Shown: positions 29,801 to 63,230 of the stretch, piece by piece
How positions within the stretch are numbered: position 1 is the first letter of the stretch
Layout of the letters: every line of letters begins with the position of its first letter
From: Pegea sp. RAD2-039
Taxonomy: Eukaryota > Chordata > Thaliacea > Salpida > Salpidae
DNA length: 64,000 nucleotides
Direction of reading: 5' to 3'
Assembly (NCBI GenBank): GCA_034620365.1
Contig: JAQGEQ010000201.1
Location: forward strand, 620,001 to 684,000
Made by a program: the position numbers and the translations under genes
The notes under the pieces: generated by a model
Databases searched by the model: none
What the model was told of the DNA's origin: nothing
The model's input: only the letters and a program-made list of their open reading frames with translations

Positions 29801-30454
29801 TGAACATCCAGAAGTAAAAGAGAAATATCTTCTTCCCCTCTAATCATCTTACATCAGATCCTCCGCTTTCACATCAAGAGGTTTCGATGGGGTGGGCGGA
29901 ACCATCGTGAGAAAATTGCCGTCAATGTCACGTTTCCTTCCGAACTCGATATTACCAATCACTGTATCGACGCCTCGCAGGTACCTTTCTTTGTGACGTA
30001 ATCAACGCGATTGACAAGAGTGCGTGTGCTACGTGGCGCTGTACTGACGTCACGAGCGCCATTTTACGCTTCACTAACCAACAGGTGTCAGAAACAGATG
30101 AGTATTTGTACGATTTACGCGCAGTGGTAATTCATCATGGTCGCGGGTTTGCTTCTGGCCACTACACGTCATATTGTTGGAACGAACGAGGCAGTAAGCT
30201 CCCCACACGCCCTTCGCGCTTTCAACGCGTCACAATCGCTTTCTGTAGAGTTCTGGGTCCACTGCAATGATTCAACTCTTGAACTTTGTTCTATCGAAGA
30301 CGTGATGACGTCACAAGCCTACATCCTTTTCTACTCCTTACGTCATACTTCACTGAAATGTAGCAACGATATTTCCCAGTTCGTATCCATGGACCTCATA
30401 GAAACTAACAAAGCTTGTAACCAACCAGCAGCAACAGCGGTGGTGACAAACTAG
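26828..30454 (+). CDS. USP44: Ubiquitin-specific protease of the USP44/USP49 type
   Basis: Cysteine deubiquitinase; USP44 and USP49 remove ubiquitin from histone H2B and other nuclear targets. Fifteen exons: 26828-26899, 27288-27436, 27494-27650, 27704-27861, 27911-28213, 28268-28451, 28688-28865, 28917-29134, 29189-29308, 29370-29512, 29566-29678, 29731-29813, 29858-29980, 30085-30193, 30249-30454; 771 residues in phase. The N-terminal ZnF-UBP contains C30/H32 (NCKHIQ), WYCCVC, CLSC and CFKC. Its usual CGRY is CGSY. An acidic, basic and serine-rich linker follows. The catalytic domain has the Cys box [16 protein letters not shown] (C334), [28 protein letters not shown], a CxxC zinc ribbon, [10 protein letters not shown], the His box [13 protein letters not shown] (H693) and WVHCNDS (D711). 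Exon 1 is inferred from the need for the C30/H32 pair; an ATG at 27321 would lose that zinc site. The USP44 symbol is tentative; USP49 fits equally. Confidence 0.93.
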
Positions 30455-35780: not shown

Positions 35781-37107
35781 ATAATTTAATCTATCGTTAT
35801 CTTACTCAATACCAATAATCTATCTCAGATGGTTACTTTTCCGACCCAAGTTAGTGGTAATACTTTGGATCTTCTTATCACATCAAAACCGGAGAATATT
35901 ATCTACGTTGATCAAAAAGAACCGTTTGCTTTGACATGCGATCACAATATGATTGAATTCAAGCTCCATCAAACTTTTTTATGAACGTTAAAACTTCAAA
36001 CAAAATAAATTTTTATCGTGGAAATTATCATGGCATTAACAAGTTTCTATCAGATGTTAACTGGATTTCTGTTTTCAACTCTTCCGAAGACATCAATACT
36101 ATTTACTCAAGGTTTGCTAACATCGTTAAAGAGTCAATAAAAAATTCATACCTTTTAATAGAGCCAACAAAAACCACGTTTGCCCCAAAATTTAAAGAAT
36201 TTACAACATTTAAAAAACCTCCTATACAAACAAACTAAAACAGACACTTTCATCAAATCTCTGTACAAAGAACTTTATAGTTTACAAGAAATCCATTTCT
36301 AATTTCTATTTAGCAAGAGAAAGTGCAGTTTTATCTTCACCTTGCAAGAAAACGTTTTTTGGTTTCATAAATCGCAAGCTTAAGGCGAGATCTCAAATAC
36401 CTCCCCTACTTGATAACAGCGACCAACTTGTGATGGAACCAGAAAATAAAGCTGAGTTGCTAAACAATCAATTTAATAGCGTTTTTATAACCGATGATGA
36501 CAATACTCTTTCTCTCTCCTACTCCGATATTCTTACAAATGTCTCTGAGATGGCAGATCTTGATATAACGGTCAATGTGGTATCTAAGGCTATTTCTTCT
36601 TTAAAATCATCAGTTTCCAATACCCCAGATCAGATCCCAGCTTTGTTTTTAAGAAAAACTACTTCATCTTTGTCACTACCTTTATCGCTTTTCTTTAACA
36701 TGACTCTGAGGCGAGGAAGAGTTCCACAAATTTGGAAGAAAGCTGTTATTACTCCAATTCATAAAAAGGGTCTCAGAAACACCGCACTTAACTACAGACC
36801 AGTTTTGCTGACTTCAGTTATCTGCAGAACTCAAGAGCATATCATTCACAATTATATGACCAGTCACTTAACCATTTAAGCACCATCTAATATCTGATGA
36901 CCAGCATGGCTTTGTGAAACGGAGATCTTCCCTAACCCAACATTTCACTTTTCTTAATGAGTTTACAGCCCAGCTGTCGAAATACCATGTGTTACATCAT
37001 TTACTTTCTATATTTTTGGCTAAATAGATGTTATTTGTGAGAATGTGTGTTAGCGAGAGGTACTCTCTTCAGGTACCATCCTTCGCATTAATTGTAATAA
37101 ATAAGTA
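35781..37107 (+). mobile_element. Broken CR1/jockey-like LINE, copy A1
   Basis: 5'-truncated copy. It starts in the end of an endonuclease-like domain (GNTLDLLITSKPENI), then frameshifts into 35981-36238 and into a frame at 36430-36879 carrying the start of the reverse transcriptase (SNTPDQIPALFLRKTTSS, VPQIWKKAVITPIHKKG, LNYRPVLLTSV). After about 36975 it jumps directly to 3' untranslated sequence, so most of the reverse transcriptase, including the YADD box, is deleted. It ends with the family tail (gagaggtactctcttcagg, then taataaataag). Same family as the copies at 54.7 and 62.1 kb. Not mobile. Confidence 0.88.
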
Positions 37108-40640: not shown

Positions 40641-42295
40641 CTAAAAAATATAAGTTATCAAAAGTACAAAATATATGGGAAAAAGTAAAGAAAATAACAT
40701 TATATATCACTTGTTTTATATATGTATATTACAAAATTCCTTAAAAATAGAAAACAAAAGCAATTTTTACATAAAAGTACCATTTAGAGACATTGTTTGA
40801 CTTATTTTAAGTACATTTTAAGTTTTCATAAAATAATAATAATATTAAAAACCACTAATTGCAAATAAGTTTACAAATATAAACTTTTAATATATTTAGG
40901 AAATTCAATATCATGAAAAAGAATATAAGATCATTTAAAGTAAACATTAATCAAAAAATTAAAAGGTTAAAAACAATAATTTAAATAGTTTTTATCCTTT
41001 AAATAATTTTGGAAAACTACAATTTATTTTCAAATTATCATTACTATATTATCAACAAAACTAAGTAATATTGATATATTTTCATATAAGCATCCCATTC
41101 AGGTAGAAAGCAGTCAACTCTAAAACAGATCTTTAAAAACTTTTTTTAAACTAAAAAATATTGTTGAAAAAATCTTTAAAAAAGCCAAGATTACTTTTGA
41201 TAATGTTTTCGAATAGGTGAAGTATCAAACACAAGTCAGTAATTACTTTTTTTATTAAATATATACAATCAATTCTAGTTGATATTTTACAATTATATAT
41301 TTAATAGTTATAAATATTTATAAGATTAGATTTAAAAATTAGTTTTAAAACAACTCTTTTCATTACACTTTGATTTGAAAATAGAAGAAATTAACATTTT
41401 TTGCTTTTTTATGTAAAATATATCTAAAGTATTTGTTTTTAAACTGATAATATCTTACATGTACTGCTTTGATTTTAATTTTAAAATAGATCTCACAAAA
41501 TAAATTCACAAAAATCTCTCAACCATTTTTGTAAACAGTTGATTTCTGAATTATATTAAATTTGAATCAGTTTGTACTATTTGCTAGAAATTCTTTACAG
41601 AGTTCAAACAAATTTCATTGAAAAGTTTGTATCTTTTAATATTTTACAAAATTATGCAAACTAACTCATAACTTTACAGATAGAATTATTTTGTAAACTG
41701 CATACACACTTTAATCAAGCTAGAAGATTTTAAGAGTAATACCTTAAAACACACTTTTAGTATTCTATAAAAGTGAAAGCAAAAGGAACTGACGATGGAG
41801 TAAGACAGGTTCACTAGAGTTACTTTTTATTGGTTCCTGTCAAATAGGTTTGCAGATTAATGTTCCAAATTGACCAAACCGGTCTTTAAACCATATTATT
41901 CGTAAGATATTTAAACCAAAGTTATTCAAACACCAAAAACTCTTTATAACGTCTAGCGAATACACAAATGTAATTAAACCATCAAATTCCGGCTTTAATT
42001 TTACTGATTAATTTCATTTATTATATAAATATATATACATCTCTATTCAACTAACTCCAAAATTTTATAAATAAAAAATGATAAATTATGTGAGGAAGAC
42101 TTTTTAAATTTAATTAAATCGGAAAAGTCCTGTTCATCAGTTGAAATTTTAGTTTTTAGCACAAAATAAAAGCAACAATTTCGTTACTGATATGTTGTTC
42201 AAAAACGGAAGTAAGAACTTTAAATTATGCTCAAATTTAAGTTTGCATGTTTATTTTTTTGATTCTTACTAATACGTAAAATGCCATTTATTTAT

Positions 42296-42440
42296 TTTAT
42301 TCAAGACATGGCTGCAAATGACAAATTATACAATCCTCATGGCAAACACAAAATAATATGAGTACAAAAAGATAATGAAAAAGTCTCAAGTATCACAGTT
42401 TAACATAAATTGATGCAGAAAATAAAATAGTACAAAGGTA
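42296..42440. repeat. Interspersed repeat, family B
   Basis: Copy of the same family, sharing tctcaagtatcacagtttaa and atggctgcaaatgacaaat with the HPRT-unit copies. Confidence 0.55.
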
Positions 42441-42961
42441 GGTATAAGTTAACCAAATTAAGAGGAAAACAGAATCAATGAAGAAAATCAAGAGACTGGC
42501 ATCATTATAACTCATTTAATGACGAATATATCGAAAAAATTGAATTTTTTATGAAACTTTTTTCTATATGCAATAGAAAAGATTCTTTTTTCTCCCTCAA
42601 AATGAATCTTTCATAACTTGAATTTTTCGTTTTATTACACAGCATCACAGACAGAAAAATTATTATATCATATTATTTAAAAAATCTTTATTGTGGTAAA
42701 ATCTTCTTCTTATAAAAGGTTTTCATTTATTTAAAAAATCTCCTTAAAACGTTTAAACTAATGACTCAGTTTTTCTACAAAAGTATTTACTGAAAAACAG
42801 TTGATATATCATTTACAGATGCTAACGTCTATATGTACTCAAAGTAAGATAATTTTATGGTTCTAATTTAAATCAATTAGGAGTATATAAAGATGCTTCT
42901 TTTTGTACCATTAAGCTTATATATACAGTAATAGTTTGATTTAGTAGCAGTTTTATAGTCG

Positions 42962-43030
42962 AATTATTTATTATAGTAGATGCAAAGGAGATTGACTGAA
43001 AAGAGCACCTCTCGTAACACACGTTCTCGC
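42962..43030 (-). mobile_element. Solo LINE 3' tail
   Basis: About 69 bp matching the last part of the LINE family (gcaaaggag, then aagagcacctctcg, then aacacacgttctcgc). It breaks at the same point as the solo tail at 5810-5887. It is more diverged, and no clear target-site duplication was found. Confidence 0.7.
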
Positions 43031-46000
43031 AAATATTATAATTATATTAAATAATCTAGATGGATATATATAGAAAGATAGATGTAGTGCATCACACTTC
43101 AAGAGTCACCCTACAATATAACTGTTCATTATTATATAAAATGTAAAAGTTGAATGATGATAAAATGATGGATCATTTTTGGACGCTAGTATTTGCTGTG
43201 ATCGATTTCAGCAACAAAAATATTAATTTGATATCTTTAAAACTTATTTCATGTTGATACAGTTCTTCTAAAACTATGTAACTGCAATAATAAGTAAAAC
43301 AATAAATTTCTTTAAAAAATCAACACAAATGGTTGTTGTTCACGGACAATTTTTTAGTTTATGGTGTTTTTAAATATTCAATTTTTGGTTTTCTTGCCAG
43401 CTTCTTTCTTATTTGTTCTTTAACTTCGCCATTCTTTGCATAAGAATTTCAAAATATAATTTATTTATTTTTAGCTTTATTTTGGTATAAAGTTTCTAAA
43501 TTTAGAAGCTTTTTAGATACTTATCGAATATTGAGATAATTCGAGAACTTTCTTTTACTCAAAGTTAATATGTTGGAGATTTATTCTTAGCTTTCTTGAT
43601 AAGATTTTTCTTAATAGGTTTCTTTGCTAATTTTAGCTAATTCTTTAGCTAATTTTTCAAAAATTGCTAATTTTTGTTATTTGACATAATTTACCAACAT
43701 TAGATATTTAAATGAATATAATTTATAAATAATAAAAATATATTACATTTATTATATGTATATAAATTATATTTTGTTTCTGTGGGAACTAACTATTTTA
43801 AATGATACTTCATCATAAGACCGATCTTTAAAAGTTAATCAACATTTTTAAGAAAGTTTTGGTTGAAGCAAAAAAAATAAAGAACTTTTTGTAAATGATA
43901 AAAGTCAATCTTGTAAGCCAACTTAATGTTTATGTGTAAAGTACGATTAAACTAAAAATGAAGCTTTACACTTGTTTATTACTAGTAAAGTTGTTTAAGC
44001 AGATTTGGGATAACTTATTTTTAAATATTTATGAAATATTTTGTGAGTAAAATAAAGCTTTTGGTTTCTTTCAATATCGACGATCATCATTTACATCTAC
44101 TTGCGGTTACCAAAATTACTTTACCAAACAAACTAAAAATAACTTTCTTTTTATATTATGAAATGTTTATATATAAACAACTTTGTTAGACAACCAACTT
44201 TATTCAGTTATCGCTGTGGACGTTGATACTCAATTTTTGTTTTGTTTTGTTTCTAAATTTTGTTTTTTTATTGATTTATCATCATAATTGAAAATGTTAA
44301 GTTGTATCTACAGTTACAAAACTTTATAAACTTAGTTTAATGGCATTGTAAAAAGAAATGAGAATTACAAAAAATGTGAATTTACTGAAAGAAAAACTAG
44401 AAGCAGTTTCTGTAGTCATGTAAACATTTTTTTATCGTTTTCAAAAAGGTTTTTTGTAATAATTTGTAATGATATTTCAACAAAGTAATGAAATGATAAG
44501 CCCGAGAAATAGATGTTTAGACGGCGAAAATATGAAAAATAGAAAAGCAGATCAAGATTTACACAATGGATATGAGAGATGGTTAGACGTGAAGAAGCTG
44601 GAAAGATCTGACAAAGATGGGCATAAATTCAAGACTGCTTAAATAGGGAACTGGGCTCATAGTTACATCCTACTGATATATCGTACTTGTACGCATGTCT
44701 AAATGAAAAAGCTCGTGGTGGTTACTAAAATCATTTTATTAAAGATCAACCATAACAGAGTGTCGACAAGAAGGGTTACGGACCAACGCCCTGGGAAACC
44801 AATATCGATCCAATACCAAATCAATCTCTGCTTCATTTTAGTTATCGGACGATAATAACAAATTATTAAGATCTAGACAGGGAAAACGTCATGACCTAAA
44901 AAAGTGGCTTCAGTTTATGATGAGATCTTTCGGAGACCGGAGTTCTTTCCAGGTTAAATTAGATGATTTTAGCTTCAAACATTTCTAGGCTTACGTTTAC
45001 ATACTAGTTCCCACTACGTTATAACATATAAGTGGCTGAATTTACCACGTGCTTTATAATCATATGATTTCAAAATTTGGTGGTAAACTTTCTCATTCGA
45101 TATTTTGTATATAGTTTCCTTCACATTTATTACTTTTCTTCTATTTATTTTTAATGTACTTTATGGTTATAACTTTGCAACTGTTTTTTATTTATCTTAG
45201 CTTTAAATGTAGCTTTATTATCAGTTTATTTCTAATTTATATTGAAAATCTGAATTTGTTTGAAGTTTTTGCTAAAAATTGTTTACCTTAGTTTTCATAG
45301 CAATCAAATAAACCTAAAGAATTTGATAGTTTTTATATCTCTTAAAAACCGGTTAATTATATAAATGTTTTGAACAATATTGTAATAGTCTACTTAATAC
45401 TTAAATATTTTAAGTAGTTTTGTTCACATATCTTAATTAATTTAATTTGTTACTTACAATCATTTTATTTTAAATTGACTCAATTTTCGTGCTTTTAAAA
45501 TTAGATTTTTTGAAATAGTTGTCAGTAAATACAAATGTTAAACTATAGAAAGAAACTGCTATTACTTTGTTAAACTCACTCTACTAGTGATGTTGTCTTG
45601 CATCACTTAGCCATCATCAGCTTCTTTGGTTTGACCAAACTGATAGTTTCTACTTTTTGAATCTTCTAATAAAGTTTTACCTCTGAAATAACAAACAAAG
45701 AAGAAAACGTGTTTAGTGAGTTTATGGATCTTATTCTAAATTCAAACTGACAACTAGACTTTTATAAAGAAGCTTTATTTATTTTTTTTGAAATTGTGCT
45801 TACTTGTATTCCTATTTATTCATGGACAAGCTAGTTAATATAACTTCCTAGCTTGTTGGTTTTTACTTGATAGTTTTAGTTTTATCATGAAAAATTTAAC
45901 TTATATAAAAATTACTTTTTTCCCAAAAGTTATCATTTTTAGTTTGATTTATATATTTTTTTAAATTTTAATGTCTTTTTTGAGTGACATAATGTATAAT

Positions 46001-46353
46001 TTTAATTATAGGAAGAATGAAATAATTATATCTTAATATATATATAGAACAGCATGAATTATTAACTACTTGATAATATGATCATATTATAATATGCTAA
46101 TGGTATTGTTTGATGACTTTCGCTAATTTTATTGAGAAATTGACTTATTAATATACGTTTATAGTATTAAGATGCTTAAATATTTATATATTAGTAAATA
46201 AGATTAAAGACATCTTGTTGATTATGACAGCTTACCAGGTTTTGCAAGTTGGTACATAATTTCCAGCTGTATTTGATAATTACTGGGAACTATTTTAATT
46301 GATTTGACATTTGTAATTTCACAAAACTGCAAATTTACCAAACTCACTGAAAC

Positions 46354-47796
46354 ATGGAACACAATAAAATAACTTATGAAGCTTCTCTCTATATTTGTAA
46401 TTTAAACGAGGAAATTGATGAATTTGAGATATACAATTTGTGCAGCCCGTTTGGTGAATTAGAATCTGTCATGGTGGTACGTGATAAAGATAAAGAACTC
46501 AAATCACTGGGATCTGCTTACGTCAACTTTCTACACCGATATTCAGGTCTTTCAATTTAACGACATTCTTTTATGATAATTTAAACCAAGCTTTAAATAA
46601 CAGCTGAAAATGCTCTGAAAAAATTACACAGTCTAGAACTCCGAGGTCAACAGTTATGTGTTATGTGGAATCCTTGTGACAAAGAAATTTACAAAGCTGG
46701 ATCTGGTAACATCTTTATCAAAAACTTACCTATTTCAACAGACCCACTAAAACTTTATCAAGTTTTCTCTCCCTTCGGAAAAGTTCATTCCTGCAAAGTT
46801 TGTGAAATACTTTCTGAGTTTATTGGTTATCTGATGTTTATTGATTTTTCAGATATTTTACAACAAATCTATCTCCATGGGTTTTGGACTTGTCCACTTT
46901 GAAAATGAAGCTTCTATAGAACCTACACTAAAACATTTTAGCACCATGAGTTTGAGTGAAAATGATGTCTCTGTTTGCAAGTTTCAAAATGAATCTGAGT
47001 TAGATACTTTAGTTTCTAAGCTGTTTGTGAGTCTTTATGTTAAGAGATTCTCTAATCAATTGGATGAAACTGGTTTGAAAGAGTTGTTTCAAACATGTGG
47101 GGAAGTGAAAAGTGTTAAAGTGATGAGAGATAGTGGAGGCAAGTCATTGGGATTTGGTTATGTTAATATGTACACTCACTATGAAGCAGAAAAGGCTGTC
47201 GAAGAACTAAACGGAAAAACCTTGGAGAACGGAGGTGAATATTATATCTTATACCTGATCATGAATTTATCGTTTTAAATGATTAAAAAAAAAATTATTT
47301 TTTGTGCAGATACCCTTTGCGTTGAACGATTAAAAACTAAGGAAGAAAGATCACAAAAAGTTCAAGTATTATCGGAAAATAAAAGCGCAAACAATTCAAT
47401 CGATCATGATGCATATACTCCTCAAAGTTTGCTTAATCCTCCTAACAACAATCCAATCACCCGACCGCCACCACAAGAGGAGATAAACAAGTGTCGTGAG
47501 TGAAATGATTGTTTCATTTTAAAAATCAGTTTATCGGATTTAGTTGTTCAACTGTAAAAGCGGAGAGCAGTTAGAACTACATTTAGATTTACACTCCAAT
47601 TAAATTATTTCTTTTGGTTTTTTATTTAGATGCTGTTTTCTTTCAAAGGGCCCTTATTGTTTGCTCACCACAACAAGCTTATAAAGTAGCAAACAAGATT
47701 TTAGAAAGGAATCTTGTTGATTGTGTGTCTTTGATGGAAGATAGTTGGGAAATTGATGCCCAAATCCAAGAGATTATGATAAGTTCTGAATCTTAG
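46354..47796 (+). CDS. Divergent cytoplasmic poly(A)-binding-protein-like protein (three RRMs plus MLLE)
   Basis: Five exons: 46354-46546, 46604-46797, 46853-47234, 47310-47495, 47630-47796; 1,122 nt, 373 residues, phases consistent. Three RRMs can be seen: RRM1 from about residue 11 (RNP2 LYICNL, RNP1-like LGSAYVNF), RRM2 with GNIFIKNLPIS, SPFGKVHSCK and MGFGLVHFEN, and RRM3 with LYVKRF, CGEVKSVKVMRD, LGFGYVNM and AEKAVEELNGK. These align with PABPC RRM1-3; RRM4 is absent. A proline/asparagine-rich linker follows (NPPNNNP, RPPPQEE). The last exon resembles the MLLE/PABC domain, with KVANKILE where PABPC has KITGMLLE. Canonical PABPC is about 630 residues. It probably binds poly(A) mRNA and PAM2-containing partners, but the divergence makes both inferences. 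It may be a fast-evolving, perhaps germline, paralog. Confidence 0.85.
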
Positions 47797-48768: not shown

Positions 48769-51700
48769 TTAATAGTTGGACTTAAAAAATGACCAATTAG
48801 TTGACGATTTGTTTGAAATATTCATAAAATTTTCTTTGTCTCTACGAAAAAACGGTATACTACTATTACTAAAAAACCGCCGCAAAACACTTTGAGACGA
48901 AGCATCTTCGAAAAAACGTTCTACAGGATAATCCGTAGAACTATTCTCGGAGCCATGCACCTTCGATTTATTCTTACATGGCTCATAGTCTAAGACACAA
49001 ATATTTGTCAATAAATGGCTTTGTTGATCTCATCTCAAATTTATCAAACTTATTTTTGACTCATTCTATTGTTAAATAAGATCTAAAAACTCACTGAACA
49101 AGATGTAGAAGCCGACAGCGACAAAACAAGCTGAAAGAGTTACTCCTGATAATATTCCAATCGCTGAATCTGTTTGATTTTTAAAAATCACTAGATGTAT
49201 TCATTTTATAAAAAACAAATAAACTAACTTCTGGAATATCTCATTTCTTCTGCGATTGTCGAATCTATAAAAAGCCAATTTTCACTTTCATAAGCTACAA
49301 GAATAATAAAAAAAAATCTGACTTATTAAACAAGATGGACACTCAAAGCTAGACCAGTTTGCATTGTTCAGGCATAATTGAGAGGTGGCATTAACCACAT
49401 ATTCCTTAGAAGCACATGAAAATGTTCGTTCACATTTTGCACCGCAAGTTTTAGTTGGCGAGGAATAGCGTACTCTTAAAAAACGTACATCACTACAAAC
49501 ATCCAGTTGCGGGCATTCTGTTGAAAGTGTTGCATTTAATACAATTCTATAAAATAGTTTATTATTTGAATAATGGAGTAAAACTGTAAATAATCTCATC
49601 AACAAACGGTACCTTGAAGTTGAAGTGTTATCGAATAAATTGTTTTAGTGTAATAACCATTTTGTAACACTACATCAAAAATTGTATTATTATCATTAAT
49701 ATCAACAGTCGACAAATTTGCTGAAAGATTTGCTGCTTTTTGAGAAGCCATTATGAAATGAAAACTGAAAATAACTTCAGATGATAAAATTGAAATTGAT
49801 AGTTTTCAATCTCAATTAGCTAGATGCTAAAACTTAGTTTCTTGAAAGTTTGAAATAAAAAGCTTTTAGAATTATTAAAAAATGTCAACAACTTACTAAG
49901 AATGCATCATGATTTGATTGATTTTTAGTAACAAATGTAAGTAGTTGTTGCTGAGTTCTAATATTTCGAATTTAAACAAATTACAAAAGTAATTATTTTC
50001 ACCTGCCACATATAACATTTTCATATTCATAATCAAAATTTCGACAAGACAAGATAGATGTTGTCACATTGTAGTCACATTTCATTATAACCGGTGAACC
50101 CTATCAAAAAATAAAATTTAAATAAAATATTTGGAAACACAAACAAGTTTTCAACAAACTGAAAAGTCATAAATAAGACAATATAACGATAAAAAAGAGA
50201 ATTAAAATATTTCAACATCAGACTAGTCTATCAAACCTTTAAATTATTTATATTTCTAGCTCTCCATAATATATTAAAGTTGAAAGATGGTAACTGAGTG
50301 AATAGAATATTTAATTGCAGTTTAACAGGAAAGCCAATCACTTGTGAAAATGTAGGAGCAGTTGAAAGAACATCCGATATTTTATACGCTGAAAAGTTCA
50401 TGTAAAAATCGTCAACTAAAACCATTATTAAAACTGAAATCAATTGAACAAAAGTAAACATGTCAAAGTTAATTTCAGTGATGATAAATTTGAAGGTAAG
50501 TACTTTACAAGATTTAAATCACAAAATTGTATTGGACATACTTGGCTGGCAGGTGGGACATACTAATTTCTTATTCCATTCTCTATTTTCCTGACAAATT
50601 GCTCCGGTAGATGATGGATTATAAAACTTTTCAGCATCACATAAATATGTAAATGTACAATTAGTTTCACAAGGAGACTCAGAATATAAGTTCAAAACTT
50701 CTTTGGAACATTCATCAAATAAAGGACAATCTAAATAAAGATAGTTAAAGATTTATCCTAAAAATATTTGTAGTTTTAAAGTTTTGCCTAAAAATTTACA
50801 AACAGTAAATTATAAGTTGAAGTGTTATATAAAAAATTATCAACAAATTGAAGACTTTAGTTTTTCTTCTATTACTTTCAAATAAACATCTTATTAATGA
50901 CAAATGTTTTAATAATTATATAAAAACTACAAACTAAAGTTTCTATTTCAATAATCACAAGACTAATACAATATTTTAAAATAACTATTCACAAAAATAT
51001 TTATAAGATACAACAACCATCTAAAATTGGATTTTTGACAAAACTACTACTTTTAAGTTACTAAGAATCAATATCTAATAGTCTTTTAGAAAAATTAAAC
51101 CATATGTTTATTAGATAAACAAGTCAAATCAAAAATAAACATGTGTGTCTTAAATCACAAAACATGTTTCTCATACCACTACATAAAATAACTTCTCATA
51201 AACTACCTCTGACTTCAGACAAGTTCAAGGAAATCTCCACCAACGTATTAGATACCAAAGTTGCATTGTAGCTATAAATTTCAAAATGTTTCTTGATTAT
51301 TATCAAGCTGTTTTCAACTTTAACCGTTTAATTTACTTTATTTAGATTACTTAAAAAGTTACAATTCTTAATAAACATAATTTAAGAGTTAATCATAAAA
51401 CTAACAATTTGTTAAATCTGATTCTCAAGCTTTTGATAAAAATATGAAATCTTCAACCTGGAATCAACAGAATTCTGATTTGTGATGGGAGAGCAAGCCA
51501 GCACTGATTTTTCATCATTATTTTCACATTTCATAATATATGTGGAACTCTGTCAAGAAAATAAGCTTCAACAAGCAATTTACATTCCCCTAAAATTATT
51601 CTAAAAGTGATAATTTATAATTAATAAAGAATTATTAAAACTCTTTTGTAATAAAAATTCAAACATCAAACCTCTATTTTATCAGTACTTGAAGCTTTCC

Positions 51701-52308
51701 ATAATATTTCAAAGTTAAACGATGGTAAATGATTGAATATGATACTGAAATGAGAAGAAAATGGAATATTGATAGCTTGTAAAACTTTAGAAATAGTTGA
51801 TGAGTTTCTTAGTACATCATATGCTAGAAAAGAATCAAAAGTTAAGAATTAAAATATTTATTAATTTGAAGATATTTTGAATTCATTTTTTTTTGTTTTA
51901 AATATTATGAGTTGAGATAATTTGTAAATGATAGCTTGAAGGTTGAAACAGTGAAATTAACTTACAAAGACAGGTAGGACATCTCAAATCTGTATTCCAT
52001 GTAGCATTGTTTTGACAATTTGCTTCAAACGACGAAGAATTGTAAAGTTTTATAATTTCACATTCATATCTACTTCTACAACTTAAATCACAAGATATAG
52101 AAGGATTGGAAGTAACTTGTCTTCCTGAACAATTACCGACTGATGTACATTCTGGTTAAAACAGAGTAAAGATTTTGTCAAAACGTCAATTATATTAAAA
52201 TCGACCAAATAAAACCGTTGCTAGTTACTTACTGAGTTGTGAACCTAAGGCTGATAAAAAAGCTGAAAATGTTAAAAAAAATACAAAGAAAATCAAAATA
52301 TTCTTCAT
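48769..52308 (-). CDS. Receptor-like type I membrane protein with repeated eight-cysteine modules (unrecognised)
   Basis: Thirteen exons close in phase: 52308-52233, 52151-51966, 51823-51672, 51549-51458, 51271-51207, 50730-50542, 50388-50237, 50100-50003, 49764-49613, 49517-49323, 49294-49229, 49169-49095, 49028-48769; 1,758 nt, 585 residues. Residues 1-21 form a signal peptide (MKNILIFFVFFLTFSAFLSA). Module A occurs three times (exons 2, 6, 10) with eight cysteines spaced C-x5-C-x12/16-C-x3-C-x5-C-x13/14-C-x10/11-C-x2-C and a Trp before the last pair, reminiscent of sushi/CCP domains with extra disulfides. Module B occurs twice (exons 3-5 and 7-9), sharing LPSFNF(E/N)ILW and IMKC. A short stalk, a membrane helix (about 476-498, IGILSGVTLSACFVAVGFYI) and an ~86-residue cytoplasmic tail follow. 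Many NxS/T sites. The layout suggests a cell-surface receptor or adhesion protein; ligand and role are unknown. Confidence 0.82.
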
Positions 52309-54676
52309 CGGGCAATTGTAACTTCTGTAATAGTACAAAATAATTGGAAAATTATTATTTCTTAAATGATGCATTATCGATAAAAATCACTTTGAAATTT
52401 ATTAAAATAATGTAGGAGCAAGTACAGAAGTCTTTTTTATAATCTTAAGTTTTTTATAATTATTATCTTTGGTTTGTAAAACTTTTTTAAAAACTATTTA
52501 GATAAATTTATCAAAACAGTAAGTATTTACAAAATGTTGCAACAAAGTTATTACAAAATTAAACAAAAATATTTTCAATTCTAGCAATAACAAAACTTAA
52601 TAAATATCATTTTTTTTAAATACAACATGTAAGCATAAAATAAACCTGATATTAATATTATTAAATTCTTAAGATTACTTATTATTAAATTGAAAGGTTA
52701 TTGACTAAATTTTTATATAGAAAAACTTTTCTTAGATATTTTGTACTTTAATAAAAAATCTTAACATGATAAAGCAAAAGTCAGAAACAATAAAAAGAAG
52801 TAAACTCGCTCAGCAAATATACTTTTATTTTAAAGTATAAACATTTTTATCAAACTTATAAATATCAAAACAACTTAAAGAAATCAAATACTTAAAAAAA
52901 TAATTTTGAGTTCATTTGTCAATTGTAAAACTTAAATAACTTAAATTAAATAATTTTTCTAAATTTCGTGAAATATAAAGTAAATACATATACTACAATA
53001 TTATTTCATACTTGATGAAATTCCAAAGTCGAGAATCTGTTTTTTTAATATTTTTACATCGGATTATTTCTGTTTTAGCAAAATTTAATACAATCTTAAA
53101 AACCATATCGTATTGTGTTTAATTTTTTTTTTGTCAAACAGTTAAGAAACAAGATAACAATTACGAGTGTGAGTTTTCTACAAAATATTTTAACATCTAA
53201 CTAATGAAAAACCTAATAATCTAAATAAATTATTTTTTATTTTATAGTTTATAAATTATAGTTTATTTCAAAAGAAAGAAAAGTTTAAATAAATTTATCA
53301 TCAGATTTATTGTGGAACACTGATTTTACTACTTAGCCAATTTAAATTAAATCAAAACACAAGAATGGCGTTTCCAAAAAAGTTATTGCAAATTATTATT
53401 ATATGAAAAATAATAAACAATAATAAAATACCATTTCTTGATATCAATAAAACTTAAATTTATTAAACTTTCAATCATAAATTTGATTTTATAACGATTT
53501 CAAGGGGATTTTTTTGTTGCAATTATAGATATTGTAAGACTAGTAATTTTATAATTATAGTATATCAATATTATCGTAACTTATGAAACGAAACTAAGCT
53601 GATCAATCCAAAATCAAAACCTACTTTTTGAAGTAAAGGAAATGCTAAACTATTTTTAATGAGTCATAATTGTCAAATGTTAAATAAATATGGGAAATTC
53701 TTCGGTTACTTAAACTAAAACATTTATACAGATTTTAGGGTATCTATAAACAAGTGAACTTCTTAAGAAAGCAAATTTGAGAGAAAAATTAAGTAAAACA
53801 AATAAAAAAAGAAAGATTAATCAGTATATAATAAACACTGCAAGCATTTAATTTTTGTATCTAAATGCTGATTTTTTGCTTACCCACTCTTCACTGTTTA
53901 TTTTTGCTTTCTATTTACCTATTATACTTTACATTTTTCTATTTCTATACGCGTCCATTTTTACATGTCTAAACAATATTGATCAATATAAATATAAAAT
54001 GACCAATTCTTACAAATTTAATACCAGTAGAATTGGAATGATACAAAAATATTTATTTTATGAAATAAGTAAGATAGAAGTAGATAGTAGGACAACATGA
54101 TAGTTTTTCAAGAAAGCTTTACTAAGAGTAATTTTAAAAAGTGATCACTTGTCAAAATCGAAGTATTAGCTTTTTTATAGCTGCTAGTTAGACCAGTCAA
54201 AAACGACTTGACATTTGCAATCGAGGCTAATTTGCTTATAAAGATAATTGAAGTTATCAGTCTGATCTCAATGTAATAAATAATCAAGACTTACAACAAC
54301 AAAAAACCCAATGTCATTATCAATTAAACTTAGAATAACTTATTACAGTAAATCTTTCATAGAAAACTTTATTAAAAGTTAATGTAGCGTCTTAATCTTT
54401 AAAATTAAAATAGAAAAATGATGTTGAAAAAAAGTGATTAGAGTTTGGCAACATTTTCAAGCTTTTATAAACTGAAATTGGCTTATACAGCTTAAGTAAA
54501 ACTTAAAAACATCAATTTTATTTATCTTAGTAGTTTATTAATCGATTTAGCAGTCTATTAATAACCAGTAAAATGTGGTAGAAAAAGTTACAATAATTTG
54601 GATTACAAAATAAAAAATATTTTTTAAAGCTTATTCGTACGTTTTTGCCTCTCAGGAAACAATTTTCATTTGAAAT
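52309..54676. other. AT-rich upstream flank of the receptor-like gene
   Basis: Should contain the promoter. A hydrophobic open frame at 53855-54100 (plus) looks like chance in T-rich sequence. No repeat recognised. Confidence 0.45.
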
Positions 54677-56446
54677 TTATTTATTTATTACAATAAATGC
54701 AAAGGAGGGTGCCTGAAAACAACACCTCTCGCTAACACACATTCTCACAATTAACATCTATTTAGTCAAAAATATAGAAAGTAAAAGATGTACCAATGGT
54801 TTTTCGATATCACTCAAAGCATATAACAGTGAACTATTACATAGAATGTTATTAATATAAAAAAGAGAAAAAAGTCATAGTTTAGAAATGACAATGTTGG
54901 CAATATTATAACGGTTCAACTTCTTCTTGAACAACGCGAGTGATTCTGACATGACAATGTCAGAAGGCAGCTGGTTCCATGTACCAATTGTGCGATATGA
55001 GAAAAAATTCGCTCTGATTAAAGTACCATGTGATATGGGTTTATTAAGATGTAATGTGTGTCGTCTGAGTTGATATAACCTAAGGGAAGGACTAATGGAA
55101 AAGAAATCATCAAACTGAAGTTCAATTAAATTGTGGATAATTCAAAAAATAAGAATTAAGTTGTATTTAACTCGTCAAATTTCCAAAGTATTTAAATTGA
55201 AGAAGCTAAGACGATGTTTATAACTATCGTATTTATTATTAAGTTTCCTGCATACCAATCTCGTGAATGTTGCCTGAACAGATTCGATTTTTTTGATATC
55301 ACTAACTTGATATGGCACTCATGCATTAACATTGTATTTAAAAATTGGACGTAATAACAATTTGAAAAGATTGATAAAAAATCATAGGTCCTTAGAATTA
55401 AAGATCTTTATAATAAGGAAGACAAGGTTGGTTGATTTTGCAAAGATTTTGGAAACATAATCGCGTCATTTAAAGTCAGATGAAAGAGTAAGGCCAAGGT
55501 CTAGGACCGAAGATACTCGTTGAATAATAAATCTGCTGATGGAGTATTGGTTCAAGCAATTTACAGCTGGTTTACGAGAAAAAGTTATAAGTTCAGACTT
55601 GTTGGGCTGGATTCTGAGCTGCCAATTCGTAGACCAGTTTTCTACAGTGTGTAGTGCAGTTTGAAGTTTTGAAGGATTACAAGATAATAGCTTGATATCA
55701 TCTGCATACACAAACACTCTGACATCATCTACTGCTACTAATCTTCTGATGAGGTCTTCGATGAAAATTGAAAAAAGAGAAGGGGACCCAGAACAGAACC
55801 CTGAGGAACACCACTAGTGATTTGACTAGAAGCAGATAAAGATACACCAGTTTGTTGGGTTCTACCTGATAAGTAATCTTCAATCCATTGTAAGATAAAG
55901 CTGTTGATTTTTGAGTTTTTTAATACAGTAACGAGCTTAATGTGTGGGACAGAATCAAACACTTTAGCAAGATCGAGGTATATGATGTCACAAGAAGTAT
56001 TACTTTCATAATGGGCTGTAAGCTCATTAAGAAAAGTGAGCTGTTGAGTCAGGGAAGATCTCCGTTTCACAAAGCCATGCTGGACATCAGATATTAGATG
56101 GTGCTCCTTCAAATGACTGGTGATATAATTGTGAATGATATGCTGTCGAGCTCTGCTGATAACTGAAGTCAGCAAAACTGGTCTGTAGTTAAGTGCAGTG
56201 TTTCTGGGACCCCTTTTATGAATTGGAGTAATAACAGCTTTCTTCTAAATTTGTGGAACTCTTCGTCGTCTCAGAGTCATGTTTAAGAAAAGCGATAAAG
56301 GAAGTGATAGAGAGGAAGTAGTTTTTCTTAAAAACAAAGCAGGGATTTGATCTGGGGTGCTGGAAACTGATGATTTTAAAGAATAAATAGCCTTAGATAC
56401 CATATCCATCATTATGTTAAGATCTAGCATCTCCGAGACATTGTAT
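54677..56446 (-). mobile_element. CR1/jockey-like LINE, copy A2, degenerate
   Basis: 5'-truncated element on the minus strand, 3' tail at 54677 (taataaataaataaa type). Reverse-transcriptase blocks are in order but split by stops and frameshifts: STPDQIPALFLRKTTSS at 56245-56430; HLISDVQHGFVKRRSS, IIYLDLAKVFDSVPH and SGVPQGSVLGPLLF at 55738-56175; VYADDIKLL and NKSELITFSRK at 55466-55717. The C-terminal part and ~500 bp of 3' sequence follow. GVPQGSVLGPLLF and YADD are the catalytic-core signatures of CR1/jockey-type elements. It is the most complete copy in the window but not able to move itself. Confidence 0.92.
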
Positions 56447-56449
56447 GTT

Positions 56450-56724
56450 CTAGTGAGTGATCTACTTCCAGCAGACTCTATTGTAGCTTCGTCACTGGCA
56501 ATAAGTAAAGTTTCAAGTTTTTGACTGAAACAAGCTACCTAAAGAAATTAGTTTTCACTGCAAAATCTTTGTAGGTGCGGCTTCCCTTGCACAACATATC
56601 TACAAATCATTTAAACTGGAAGATCTCAATATTTCAAAAGTTTTGGAGAGGAAAGGTGCTTGTTACATTTTTTTTATTATTGATTGCTTGCTGACACCAT
56701 CTTTAACAAAATTAAATTAAACCA
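56450..56724 (+). pseudogene. Fragment of a second lipoxygenase gene
   Basis: About 270 bp matching 59,845-60,118 of the intact lipoxygenase: the end of exon 8 (SDLLPA...VASSLAIS), the intron after it, all of exon 9 (KSFKLEDLNISKVLERK) and the start of the next intron. Splice signals and frame are kept, but the rest of the gene is missing. The left edge abuts the 5' end of the LINE at 54677-56446. Differences include amino-acid changes (LAQHIYKSFK against IVRHAYKSFR), so it is an older paralog rather than an assembly duplicate. Confidence 0.82.
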
Positions 56725-57430
56725 AATTTCTAAAATTCTATTTTGAAAATGTTTATTACCATTGAAGTAATATTTGAGTAGTTCATTAAAACAAGTCATA
56801 ATAGTAATTCATAATTAAACAGTCGATAGAATTCTATTCTGTCCACAAAAATCTACAAAGAATAATTACAGCATTTTGAAAAATACCGGTTATAGACACG
56901 GTATACAGCAAAAATCTGATTCATACCTAAAACAAATGATTTCATCATAAAATAATTTTGTCTTAGAAGAACTTCTATACCATTCGAAAAACAGGAAGCG
57001 GAAAGACTCATCTCAAACCAATCTTCTTTATAAAACGAGTTTAATTAATCTCCCGACTTAGAGGGACTATGAATGCTTAATGTAGAGACATAATAAAGAC
57101 TATTGAGATTAGATATTATTCCGGTTTTATTTTTATATAAAATAAGTTGATATTTTAATTGAAATTTACACAGATTTTGTTTTATGCCTTTACTAACGTT
57201 AGCATAGAAAAGAACAGTTTCAAAGTTTGTAAGATCTTAGAGAAAAAAGGTGGCTAAAGATTTCTATTAAATAAACAGTTCAAATTTATAAATTAAAAAC
57301 ACTTTTTTGAAGTGTAATAAAAAATGATTTAAAAACTACTAATTTTAAAGCTTATAAGAACAGCTTGTTAAAATTTCAAAACTAAGCAAGTTTACAGTTT
57401 GTAGGAGACACGCCCTCTAAGTAAGTCAGA
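56725..57430. other. 5' flank of the lipoxygenase gene
   Basis: No further lipoxygenase exon homology was seen after 56724. Presumed promoter region of the gene at 57431; no core element identified. Confidence 0.45.
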
Positions 57431-60400
57431 ATGTCTTATTGTAGTGAACCCTTCAGTCCAGATGACAACAAAACCCATACCAACTACATGATCACCATTA
57501 AGGTAAAAGCAGTGAATACCAATTAATATTGTTCAAGGTTAACTTATTACTACTTTAAAAAATTTTTTTTATAGTTTTATAACTTTTAACAAGAACACTT
57601 CCTTTTAGACTTCTGGAGCATATTTAGACGCAGGAACTAAATCAACGATTGAACTACAGTTTGTTGGAGATCAAGATGACAGAGAAACATCAGCAATTGA
57701 ACTAAATGAATTGCTTGAAACTGGTTTTAACCCTGGAAATGTTCATAGAGTAAATCGACAACTAGAAGATGTTGGAAATATCATAATGGTGAAAATAAGT
57801 ACGTTCACCTCTAAAGTTTTAACGAAAAATGGATAATTTTGTTATTATTATTTCTGTATTCAATGCAATATTGAAGAAAAAAAGTTAAAAAAATATTTAT
57901 GTGATCTTCACAGGGCTTAAAAACTGTCTTAGTACGGATAATTGGTTGTGTGATTGGATTGAAGTAACTGTTCATCGTGAACGTTATCGATTTCCAGTCT
58001 ACTCTTTCATTGAGAGTGAAGCTCAAGTCTGCACAGGAAAAGGTATTTGATTAAGAGTTGAGTGACTGGAAACAAAGCATCAAAAAACTAATAGCTTGTT
58101 TTAGATTTAGTAATGTAAACAATTGAATTGTTGTATTTATTGCTAAATACTTTATTAAAAAATTAACTTTTCTTCAGCTTCTTTGCCACAAAATGAGACT
58201 GATTCTATTTTGAAACTTCAACGAGAAGAAGAGATTGAATCAAATAAGAAGCAGTTTCGTTGGGTAACTGAAAATAATAACAAGTTTAAGGGGTTTCCAA
58301 GATATGGAGATTATGATTCGTATAGTGCTTTGCCAAACATATTCAAACGATATACAGTTCGAGATAGAGATTTTCAAAATCATAAATTAGAGGCGATCAC
58401 TAAATCGACTTACGAATATGGTGAAAATTAGAATTTACATTTTACTTTAATTTCTAAAGATGGTGAAAAAAAGACTTAAAAATATACTTCATACTTAAAA
58501 AAACTTTAGTCTTACAATTTCTCTTTCTAAAATATTTTATTTTTAAGCAATTTGTTATTCAATTGAAAGTTTCGAAGATTACCATCATTTATCTGATGCC
58601 TTATCACCACCTTCAAACAACTTTAATCATGAGTAAGTTAAAGAACTATTATTTGATTGCAAAAAGTTTTGGAATTTAACTTATCATATTTAATAAAGCT
58701 GGAAAAAAGATTTAGTTCAAGGCTGGCAGATACTAAACGGTGTTTATCCTACTGCTTATGAGTTGTGTAAGGAAATACCAAGTTATTTTAATGTAACTAA
58801 TGAAGCCTTGAAAGAAATAATTGGTGACAGGACAATTGATGATTTGATTGAAGTGAGTGTTAAAGATTGAAGTTGTTGGTATAGTGTCTACTTTATTTTA
58901 TCAAAAGTATTTTTAAAGCTGTTTATGAAAGAGACTTGCTGAACTTTAACCCAGAAATATAGGAAGATTCTTCTATAGTAATCACTTTATAGTTATTTTA
59001 GAAACAAAGTCTTAGAATTGTCGTTTCTCTAATTATTTCAGCTTACATGTACTAGTTAATGAAATATTTATAAATCTTAAGAAGGTATTTATTTACTGGA
59101 GTTATATTTAAAGAACGATGTATTTTTTTAATTTGATGCAAATAATGATTTGGATAACCCATATAAAGTATTTACTAAATCTTCTGACTTTGAAACGAAT
59201 TGAAGAGATGATTTAATCTTTGTTTAACAGCGTTATTGTTTAATTATCTATTTATCTTTTTAGTTAGTATTAGAATAGCATAATATAGTTATTTATAATT
59301 TATTAAATAATTTAATTTTGCAAATATTCATGAATGCTTATATTAGAGAAGTTAAAATCCTGATTACACATAGAAAGGAGAATTGTACATCTCAAACTTT
59401 AGTGAAGTATTTGGGACAGCCGCTGACATCAAGCGAGTCAAAGGTTCATCTGGTGCTGATGCTGTGTGTCCTCCTGCTATAGCTCTTTTCCTAAATGATT
59501 CTAAGGGGTTTCGACCAATTGCAATCCAATTAAAGCCAGATGATCCTGAATACTTGTTTGTTGCTGATGATGGATTAGGTTGGCTGTTGGCCAAAATGTA
59601 TTACAGATGTTGTGTATCCAATTACCACGAAGTAATTAAAGTTTTAGATAACGAATACTTTTCTATCAGTAACTAAAGGTGTTAATTTTTCTTTTATCAG
59701 TGGATAATGCACTTCTTGTATACCCATAACGTCATGGAGCCTTTTTGTATCTCCTTGTTTCGTTGTCTTCCGAGATGTCATCCAGTTTATAAACTACTTC
59801 GACCACATCTACGAACAGTTGTTGCAATCAACACTAATGCTAGGAGTGATCTACTTCCAGCAACTTCTCTTGTAGCTTCGTCACTGGCAATAAGTAAAGT
59901 TTCAAGTTTTTGACTGAAACAAGCTACCTAGAAAAATTAGTTTTCACTGCAAAATCTTTGTAGGTGCGGCTTCTATTGTAAGACATGCTTACAAATCATT
60001 TAGACTGGAAGATCTCAATATTTTAAAAGTTTTGGATAAGAAAGGTGCTTGTTACATTTATTTTATTATTGATTGCTTGCTGACACCATCTTTAACAAAA
60101 TTAAACTAAATCAAATTCCCAGGTCAAAACATTTAACTCAATTTTGTTGTTTAAAGGAATCAAACCTGCTAACTTTACAAACAATTGGTATGCAAAAGAC
60201 GCGTTGGCTATTTGGAATGCCATCCAAAACTATGCCACTGATATTTTGAAGATTTATTACAAGAATGAAGAGGTTGGAATTAATTTTTAGAGCTATTTTT
60301 TTAATATGCAACTAATGGTATTTCATGAATTATTTTCTTAATATATTAATAATAGCACAAAGTTAATGCTAAATAGTATTATATTTATATTAAAGAAAAT

Positions 60401-61599
60401 GCAAGTTTAAATCGATTTATGTTATAGGATGTAAAGAATGATTCTGAATTACAAGATTGGAATAAAGATTTAACAAAGGAGGGCTTTGGATGTAGTGCGA
60501 CAAATGATAAGGGGTTTTCACTTTCCGAGATTAACATGGAACAACTGGTATTTATAAAACTATCATAAAAACAGTTTAGTGTTAAGTTGGTGAAATTACG
60601 TTATAAGTATTGAAAAGTATTTTGCCGACATGAATTGATTTAAGTTTCATATGTTTATGATTGTTAACATACAATGAAAAATAGTGATGAGACAGACTTA
60701 TTATATCTGAATGAAAACTTAGAAAAACTTTAGAAAAAAATATTGATGAGTATTCTTATAGAATATAAAAATTAGATTGAATCTTTTAGTTTCTGGAAAT
60801 ACTTACAACTAAAAATTTCACTAATGTTTACAAGAATTCTTTAATACAGATTGAGATTTGTACAATTGTCATATATACTGCTTCAGCTCAACATGCTGCT
60901 GTGAACTTTGGACAATATCAAACTTATATATTTGCTCCATCCTCACCAGCAATCATGAATAAAGAAGTTCCAAAAAACACTGAAGTAAGAACAACGAAAT
61001 TGTTTCACTGACAAAGCATTTCAAAAGTACACTAAAAAATAATTTAATTGAAAAGATATTATGGTTCTAAAATATTCAAATTTGATTTGTTTTTTTTCTT
61101 CAAATATGGATTTCTAATTAGTTTGCACTTGTTTAGAACATAACAATGAAAAGAATTCTGGAAAGTTTGCCCTCAATCTCACAAGCAATCTTTATAAATG
61201 CTTTCACAAATACGCTTTCTCAATTTTCAGAAGCTGAAGTAAGTATAAAATCGGAAAGGTTTTATTTGTAACAGTTTGTAAAAACAAGAAAATTGTTTTA
61301 ATTTTCTTTCAAGCATAGATAGGCGGCTAAGTTTTTGTTTTGACTATAAGTTCTGACTCATCACTTAGCTAGCTTTAAAATCTTAATTTTGTGTTTGAAA
61401 TGAACAATTTCAACTGCAGGTTTACTTGGGTAATTGGAAAGAAAATTGGTTTACGGAATGTGAAGCAACAGAAGCTCAAGCTGAATTCAAACATCAATGT
61501 GAGCTTCTACATCATGAGATTAAAATGAGAAACCGAAAGTTGGAGCGCAAATATGAATATCTTGATCCTATTCAAGTCCCAGACAGCATAGCTATTTAG
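57431..61599 (+). CDS. PLAT-domain lipoxygenase
   Basis: Non-heme iron dioxygenase that adds O2 to polyunsaturated fatty acids, giving hydroperoxides for eicosanoid-type signals. Fourteen exons: 57431-57502, 57609-57798, 57914-58042, 58178-58420, 58548-58632, 58699-58852, 59374-59631, 59701-59893, 59964-60044, 60157-60272, 60428-60547, 60850-60984, 61137-61238, 61420-61599; 685 residues (mammalian enzymes about 660-675). The PLAT domain spans about residues 15-125. The catalytic domain has LVQGWQILNGVYPTA, PIAIQLKPDDPEYLF and WLLAKMYYRC. All five iron ligands are present: H381 and H386 (HFLYTH), H562 and N566 (AQHAAVN) and the C-terminal I685 (VPDSIAI). Spacings between ligands match human 5-LOX closely. 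The stereocontrol position (INTNAR) is Ala424, as in most S-lipoxygenases. No signal peptide; the PLAT domain suggests membrane association. Positional specificity cannot be read. Confidence 0.96.
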
Positions 61600-62053
61600 C
61601 AAGTAGCTAGTGTTCGATCTAAATGTATTTTATTTTACCCAGAAAACAATCTAATGTTTGAGGATTACGTAACATACATTTTCAAACTTCCTAAACTTAT
61701 TTTACTCTAGAAAGAGATAATAGAAATATAAGAAATAATACTCATTGCTTTACGTTGATCGAATAATCTATTTTTTGTCGTATGTCTGTTACTTGATGGT
61801 AAATAAATATTAATCTGGTTTATTATTTATACAGAAATGCTGACTTGAGAATTTTCAATAGAAATTATTATTCCATTTGAACAAGTTTCATTTTATTTTA
61901 ATCTCCTTTTGATGGGTTCATTTCACAAACAGGAAATTAATAGTTAAAGACTTATAAGCCAAAGTCTAGCTATGAGCTGTGATGCATGGTTACATGTCAT
62001 CGTTGATAAACAATAATTCCTCAGTTTTTGAGTATCTAGTTACATTTATTTTC
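61600..62053. other. 3' flank of the lipoxygenase gene
   Basis: Contains AATAAA at about 61802, a plausible polyadenylation signal. Nothing else recognised. Confidence 0.5.
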
Positions 62054-63230
62054 ATTTAATTATTACAATAAATGAGAAGGAGGGTGCCTGAAAACAACAC
62101 CTCTCGCTAACACACATTCTCACAATTAACATCTATTTAGTCAACAATATAGAAAGCAAAAGATGTAACAATGGTTTTTCGATATCACTCAAAGCATATA
62201 ACAGTGAACAATTACATAGAATGTTATTAATATAAAAAAGAGAAAAAAGTCATAGTTTAGAAATGACAATGTTGGCAATATTAAAACGGTTCAACTTCTG
62301 CTTGAACAACGCGAGTGATTCTTAAATGACAATGTCTGATGGCAGCTGGTTCCATGTACCAATTGTGCGATATGAGAAAAAATTCGCTCTGATTAAAGTA
62401 CCATGTGATATGGGTTTATTAAGATGTAATGTGTGTCGTCTGAGTTGATATAACCTAAGGGAAGGACTAATGGAAAAGAAATCATCAAACTGAAGGTCAA
62501 TTAAATTATGGGTAATTCAAAAAATAAGAATTAAGTTGTATTTAACTCGTCGAATTTCCAAAGTATCTAAATTTAAGAAGCTGAGACGATGTTTATAACT
62601 ATCGTATTTATTATTAAGTTTCCTGCATACCAATCTCGTGAATGTTGCCTGAACAGATTCGATTTTTTTGATATCACTAACTTGATATGGCACTCATGCA
62701 TTAACATTGTATTCAAGAATTGGACGTAATAACAATTTGAAAAGATTGATAAAAAATCATAGGTCCTTAGAATTAAAGGTCTTTATAATAAGGAAGACAA
62801 GGTTGATTGATTTTCCAAAGATTTTGGAAACATAATCGCGTCATTTAAAGTCAGATGATAGAGTAAGGACTAGGTCTAGGACCGAAGATACTCGTTGAAT
62901 AATAAATATATTGATGGAGAATTGGTTCAAGCAATTTACAGCTGGTTTACGAGAAAAAGTTATAAGTTCAGACTTTGTGGGCTAGATTCTGAGCTGCCAA
63001 TTCATAGACTAGTTTTTTACAATGTTTAGTGCAGTTTGAAGTTTTGAAAGATTACAAGATAATACATACAAAGATAAATAAAATAAATACAAGATAATCA
63101 TTTGCATACACAAACATACTGACATCATCTACTGCTACTAGTCTTCTGATGGGGTCTTCAATGAAAATTAAAAAGAGAAGGGCACCCAGAACGGAACCCT
63201 GAAGAACACCACTAGTGATTTGACTAGGAG
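62054..63230 (-). mobile_element. CR1/jockey-like LINE, copy A3, truncated
   Basis: Shares the 3' ~1.1 kb of copy A2 at high similarity, from the tail at 62054 to the SGV-QGSVLG reverse-transcriptase box near 63200, where it is cut. It carries a small private expansion in an AAATAAAATAAATAC stretch near 63070, next to the YAD(D/N) region, which reads YAND. Dead copy. Confidence 0.88.

Follow-up and report, generated by a model that had tools for sequence, protein, structure and literature searches.

Sushi domains (CCP, SCR; PF00084) serve, among other roles, in complement control and in selectin adhesion, and six-cysteine sushi domains are also found in selectins. A sushi domain is usually encoded by a single phase 1-1 exon. 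The SRCR domain, of about 100 residues, has a different fold. Its group B shares with the modules described below the number of eight cysteines (PMC10855680). In Botryllus, sushi-containing receptors act in allorecognition: the fester co-receptors are proteins of 520–610 aa with an Ig domain, a sushi domain, two further Ig domains, a membrane helix and a long tail, they constitute a family of 53 loci, and no signalling domain is known in either fester or uncle fester (PMC12065747). Secreted CCP proteins can mimic a cytokine, as described in PMC10516467 for the TGM proteins of Heligmosomoides polygyrus, which contain three to seven tandem CCP domains that are strongly diverged, hold four or six cysteines, retain distant sequence similarity only and are encoded by two exons each.

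The gene described here runs from 52308 down to 48769 on the minus strand of a 64,000-nucleotide stretch of DNA (the window; positions 620001–684000 of contig 76 in an assembly of 105.7 Mb and 387 contigs). Its predicted product contains three eight-cysteine modules of a seemingly new kind; according to profile and spacing comparisons, these are very probably diverged forms of the sushi/CCP domain. In common with the sushi domains of CD46, C1s, C1r, CR1 and C2, each module comprises about 60 residues in one phase 1-1 exon, and has four canonical cysteines with fitting spacing, an aromatic residue two positions before the second of them, a tryptophan before the last pair and a proline next to the last cysteine; it differs in having four extra cysteines and a score below the Pfam cut-off, and its copies are separated by another domain instead of being strung directly together. 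With 32 six-cysteine sushi domains from the same genome the modules share extra cysteines between the first and second canonical cysteines, a Cys-Ser after the second cysteine and a C-x3-C pair, whereas they differ in a shorter first loop and an additional cysteine three before the last one, giving eight in total. Compared by description with the fester family and its co-receptors, the predicted protein is likewise a cell-surface molecule with sushi mixed with other extracellular domains, but the former have Ig domains beside a single sushi domain (PMC12065747). The TGM proteins resemble it in the divergence of their CCP domains and differ as secreted mimics. Unlike SRCR group B, the module gave no match to a Pfam SRCR family; none was found among the matches of the protein at E ≤ 10.

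The exon chain was rebuilt from the sequence and stayed open throughout its 13 exons, with all 12 introns of the GT-AG type (Table 1). The order given by an earlier sequence-only reading was recovered from the chain and its hydropathy: a signal peptide, an eight-cysteine module and an intervening module, the same pair again, a third eight-cysteine module, a stalk, a helix and a tail. The intron phases were, from exon 1 onward, 1,1,0,2,1,1,0,2,1,1,1,1, and a repeat unit made of one cysteine exon and three further exons was present twice with the same intron order and phases (1,1,0,2). Exons were richer in GC (32.3%) than introns (22.3%). Alignment of exons 3 and 7 at 47 codons gave pS 0.55 and pN 0.29, and the three pairwise comparisons of the cysteine modules gave pS 0.50–0.70 and pN 0.38–0.50; such values are what duplicated coding exons look like. 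The repeated phases, the excess of pS over pN, the GC contrast and the restriction of the PDB matches to CCP proteins (see below) argue for a gene structure beyond chance.

Table 1. Exons of the receptor-like gene in the window, in the order of transcription.
Feature	Position	Strand	Basis
Exon 1, start codon and signal peptide, residues 1–26	52233..52308	-	Open frame, donor GTAAGT, hydrophobic residues 4–22
Exon 2, eight-cysteine sushi-like module 1, phase 1-1	51966..52151	-	Profile, spacing and shuffle tests
Exon 3, intervening module 1, first part	51672..51823	-	Pairs with exon 7
Exon 4, intervening module 1, middle part, two Cys	51458..51549	-	Intron phases as exon 8
Exon 5, intervening module 1, last part	51207..51307	-	Alternative in-phase start 51271
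Exon 6, eight-cysteine sushi-like module 2, phase 1-1	50542..50730	-	Profile, spacing and shuffle tests
Exon 7, intervening module 2, first part	50237..50388	-	Pairs with exon 3
Exon 8, intervening module 2, middle part	50003..50100	-	Open frame, intron phases
Exon 9, intervening module 2, last part	49613..49764	-	Intron phases
Exon 10, eight-cysteine sushi-like module 3, phase 1-1	49323..49517	-	Weak Pfam sushi match, module residues 7–62
Exon 11, stalk	49229..49294	-	Alternative in-phase acceptor gives 49264..49229
Exon 12, membrane helix	49095..49169	-	Hydropathy peak, mean 2.12 over 19 residues
Exon 13, cytoplasmic tail and stop codon	48769..48989	-	Open frame; 72-residue tail

The chain had been described as a 13-exon model that closes perfectly to give 585 residues. 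The open exons and GT-AG introns bear out the first part of this statement, but two junctions, the acceptors of exons 5 and 11, have alternative in-phase solutions, and the length has to be corrected: AG acceptors throughout give a predicted protein of 584 residues, the start of exon 5 at 51271 gives 572 aa, and the start of exon 11 at 49264 gives 574 aa. The gene is real in outline, and the exact 585-residue protein is not established. As first drawn, the intron between exons 10 and 11 is 28 nt long; the second acceptor of exon 11 extends it by the 30 nt between the acceptors to 58 nt. As a yardstick for intron length, a sushi array on contig 249 of the same genome was used, in which 16 of the 23 gaps between the listed sushi hits were short (<140 nt). 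A single phase-1 frame-keeping GT-AG solution, of 48–62 nt, was obtained for nine of these short gaps, and several solutions for the other seven, four of which included one of 24–38 nt. Because the single-solution gaps span 48–62 nt, the 58-nt version of intron 10 appears likelier than the 28-nt version, which is probably too short.

Recounting of the cysteine gaps gave 5,12,3,5,14,11,2 for modules 1 and 2 and 5,16,3,5,13,10,2 for module 3, exactly the spacing C-x5-C-x12/16-C-x3-C-x5-C-x13/14-C-x10/11-C-x2-C noted before. The accompanying remark that the module is like a sushi domain with eight cysteines was right and understated, in that the profile, shuffle and spacing tests point to a sushi-derived module and not to a new one. 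A Pfam scan of the protein gave no family above its cut-off; PF00084 matched module 3 at E 0.55 and 11.1 bits, below its cut-off of 20.7, over module residues 7–62 and profile positions 4–56 of 56, and modules 1 and 2 gave no Pfam sushi match at E ≤ 10. A match of module 1 to zf-C6H2 (E 0.0012; 19.4 bits, with the cut-off at 30) was set aside, its alignment being limited to 22 residues that end at the CPTC of that module. The three-module profile scanned against 177,635 distinct PDB sequences at E ≤ 10 returned CCP-bearing chains only: 10 distinct sequences from five complement proteins, CD46/MCP (two), C1s (four), CR1 (one), C2 (one) and C1r (two), all of which carry CCP domains. The E-values, from 0.028 at best to 0.96 at worst, were weak one by one, and six of the 10 chains had no single stretch passing E 10. 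When the columns of the profile were shuffled with Cys and Trp fixed, three shuffles gave 0, 2 (SP15 and listerin) and 0 PDB matches; the loss of the matches indicates that residues beyond Cys and Trp carry signal. Since the score is below the Pfam curated cut-off, the modules are, by these profiles, sushi-derived and not formal members of PF00084.

Sushi models were also built from the genome itself, from 32 six-cysteine and 90 four-cysteine domains picked by spacing pattern. With the HMMER bias correction off, the modules outscored nearly all of 3000 shuffles, the real score being reached by 0 to 74 of 3000 Cys/Trp-fixed shuffles across nine tests; with the correction on, they fell to 8–16 bits, with a bias of 7–10 bits. 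HH-suite comparison of the modules with sushi gave a local probability of 51–64% over 28–30 columns and 2–4% in global mode. Most module–sushi alignments covered the C-terminal half only, and the four-cysteine model aligned module 2 from residue 4 to 60. Searched through the whole genome, the module consensus retrieved the three modules themselves and, next in rank, a sushi domain on each of contigs 38 and 262, at E-values (0.44 and 0.47) that are not significant by themselves.

With C1, C5, C6 and C8 taken as the canonical cysteines, the spacing is 28/14/14 in modules 1 and 2 and 32/13/13 in module 3, which fits the sets from the genome itself, with 27–35, 13–16 and 12–15 in the four-cysteine set (n = 90) and 25–28, 13–22 and 11–15 in the six-cysteine set (n = 32), a comparison in which both sets were preselected by a broader spacing pattern and C5 and C8 are assumed to be the second and fourth cysteines. 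The aromatic residue two before C5 is Tyr, Tyr and Phe in the three modules, and its counterpart before the second canonical cysteine is present in 89 of the 90 four-cysteine and 22 of the 32 six-cysteine domains. The Trp between the third and fourth canonical cysteines is invariant in the three modules, which end in CPTC, CPTC and CPSC, with Pro before the last Cys. With the six-cysteine model and in a MAFFT alignment, it was C4, and not C5, that fell on the second canonical cysteine; we prefer C5 because the spacing and the aromatic residue would fit it. The two schemes imply different extra disulfides.

The two intervening modules are 36% identical to each other and have in common a motif LPSFNF-x-ILW and a Cys pair ten residues apart. 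They had no Pfam match at E ≤ 10, and the PDB sequences gave six incoherent weak matches (CheY and others) with a best E of 0.55. Their exons 7 and 9 had no copy in the whole genome outside the receptor gene. We read the intervening module, tentatively, as beta-rich. An fn3 search of the genome showed only fn3-rich giant frames; arrays of this kind on contig 1, at about 737000–836000, form open frames of up to 6547 residues, which may be read as titin- or twitchin-like and taken as the mark of an animal genome.

Ordinary sushi domains are frequent in this genome. At least 150 PF00084 matches were obtained (150 scored of 638 candidates), all those listed being over the cut-off and many in tandem arrays; none of the listed matches was on contig 76, which holds the window. 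The arrays of four- and six-cysteine domains are on other contigs, and some of their repeat units are nearly identical (contig 30, for example), which suggests recent array expansion. In 152 kb of such arrays, a model scan identified 178 distinct full-length domains, 104 of them with four cysteines, 41 with six, 17 with five, 12 with three or fewer and four with seven. Extra-cysteine domains are common in this sample, and none of the 178 had eight cysteines or ended in C-x2-C, in a scan that could miss domains as diverged as the modules and in a limited fraction of the genome that had been selected for its sushi arrays. Nor did the eight-cysteine spacing turn up when these loci were searched for it directly. 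As far as sampled, the eight-cysteine form would be peculiar to this gene.

No paralog was found in the whole genome (105.7 Mb) with five exons (the three cysteine modules and exons 7 and 9) and one module consensus as the only queries and with the best candidates alone scored, so that distant paralogs may be missed. In the 10 kb flanking the window on either side, tblastn returned a single match (E 0.79) and hence no paralog. A weak match of module 2 on contig 39 (E 0.79) was discarded after the surrounding sequence was read as unrelated. A 26-nt inverted match between 45710–45735 and 49075–49100, at the donor of the membrane exon, had hinted at a convergent paralog; tblastn of the protein against the window revealed no matching exons there, the region 41000–46400 was also read, and the match was attributed to chance.

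The window is AT-rich, mostly 22–31% GC in 2 kb steps. Among the neighbours of the gene are frames for a C2H2 zinc-finger protein, a ubiquitin hydrolase and an RRM protein, as well as tandemly repeated HPRT-like frames and a reverse-transcriptase element. The zinc-finger frame adjoins a minisatellite at 220–776, which has a 17-nt unit and about 33 copies. Between 5900 and 22000 a stretch is present in three copies about 5.49 kb apart (e.g., 7686, 13178 and 18667) and includes the HPRT-like frames at 11880–12215 and 17372–17704 (both on the minus strand), the latter with 23.4 bits to Pfam Pribosyltran, just under the cut-off of 26.3. The ubiquitin carboxyl-terminal hydrolase frame at 27786–30270 (UCH, 27.9 bits at 29911–30267) lies in an island of 44% GC. 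Pieces at 54676–63230 are repeated about 7.4 kb apart with 95%, 90% and 93% identity, and a reverse transcriptase frame is found at 55741–56244 (minus strand; RVT_1, E 2.8e-18); a frame resembling it at 36214–36876 (plus strand) had no Pfam match at E ≤ 0.01.

The predicted protein begins with a signal-peptide-like hydrophobic stretch (mean Kyte-Doolittle value 2.43) and has one further hydrophobic helix, near residue 492 in a numbering shifted by one. Thirteen N-glycosylation sequons are located in the first 488 residues, which correspond to the ectodomain. In the tail none of the seven patterns tried was found (ITIM, ITAM, YxxPhi, NPxY, acidic dileucine, PxxP and TRAF). The protein is apparently a type I single-pass membrane protein, as judged from this predicted topology.

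Other readings of the locus were weighed against this one. A pseudogene, or a model with wrongly joined exons, is very improbable: two junctions are not unique, but every exon is open, all introns are GT-AG, the intron phases are kept between the repeat units and pN is lower than pS in exons 3 and 7. Alternatively, the protein could be secreted, if exon 10 is read through to a stop codon inside the supposed intron and the exons for the membrane helix and the tail form part of another transcript or of an alternative isoform. The frame of exon 10 does continue for 13 residues past the last Cys of module 3 before it stops (window 49288–49515, minus strand), and the intron as drawn is only 28 nt long; nevertheless phase 1 is maintained into exons 11–13, which encode a good membrane helix, and the 58-nt intron is available. 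We consider this reading unlikely, and retention of intron 10 would yield a secreted isoform. For the modules themselves, a separate fold that resembles sushi merely in the last cysteines and the tryptophan would agree with the score under the Pfam cut-off, the mostly C-terminal alignments and the low global HH-suite probability. It is made distinctly unlikely by the Cys/Trp-fixed shuffles, which lose the PDB matches and mostly score lower against the own-genome models, by the fit of the C1–C5 spacing and of the aromatic residue before C5 to sushi, and by the span of the four-cysteine model over module 2.

As to function, an immune or allorecognition receptor for self/non-self or microbial ligands, comparable to the Ig/sushi fester family of Botryllus and its co-receptors, would be consistent with the sequons of the ectodomain and with a type I layout and size close to those of the co-receptors, and fester and uncle fester, too, are without a known signalling domain (PMC12065747). 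Against it, no paralog was found with the exons and consensus searched, so that a multigene immune family is not favoured; no Ig domain appeared in the Pfam scans (of the full protein, and of the intervening modules at E ≤ 10), and the tail has no ITIM, ITAM or YxxPhi pattern. An immune role is possible, nothing here favours one specifically, and we hold this receptor type to be a rather doubtful candidate. There is little chance that the gene encodes an orphan recognition receptor in which a new four-disulfide sushi subclass and an undescribed spacer domain serve self/non-self or partner recognition in one invertebrate lineage.

The explanation that we regard as probable is a single-pass type I cell-surface glycoprotein whose ectodomain would bind an outside ligand in adhesion or recognition. 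Its ectodomain would consist of a sushi variant, a spacer, a second sushi variant, a second spacer, a third sushi variant and a short stalk. The three cysteine modules probably descend from ordinary sushi/CCP domains, with C1, C5, C6 and C8 kept in the expected pairs C1–C6 and C5–C8, and the gained C2, C3, C4 and C7 could form two extra disulfides and give a stiffer domain. Most likely the ectodomain would bind another protein or a glycan outside the cell, in a role of adhesion or recognition. The layout is that of a cell-surface binding protein, from which such a function may be suggested. Because the tail lacks any motif tried, signalling, if any, would proceed via a partner.

The sequence-only reading recognised no family with this architecture, a statement that holds for Pfam and PDB sequences and is to be limited to these libraries. 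An eight-cysteine sushi domain was not found in the titles, abstract beginnings and passages of the open-licence literature. What appears to be new, as judged from these comparisons, is a domain of sushi origin that has four additional cysteines and belongs to an architecture for which Pfam and PDB sequences gave no counterpart. Such a domain, with twice the canonical number of cysteines, would alternate, in three copies, with a domain unmatched in Pfam and PDB sequences, in a genome otherwise rich in ordinary sushi arrays. Profile-based annotation would miss the module, since it lies below the Pfam cut-off. Should the fold be confirmed, the CCP scaffold would be known to span a wider range, and the gene would provide a candidate surface receptor to test.
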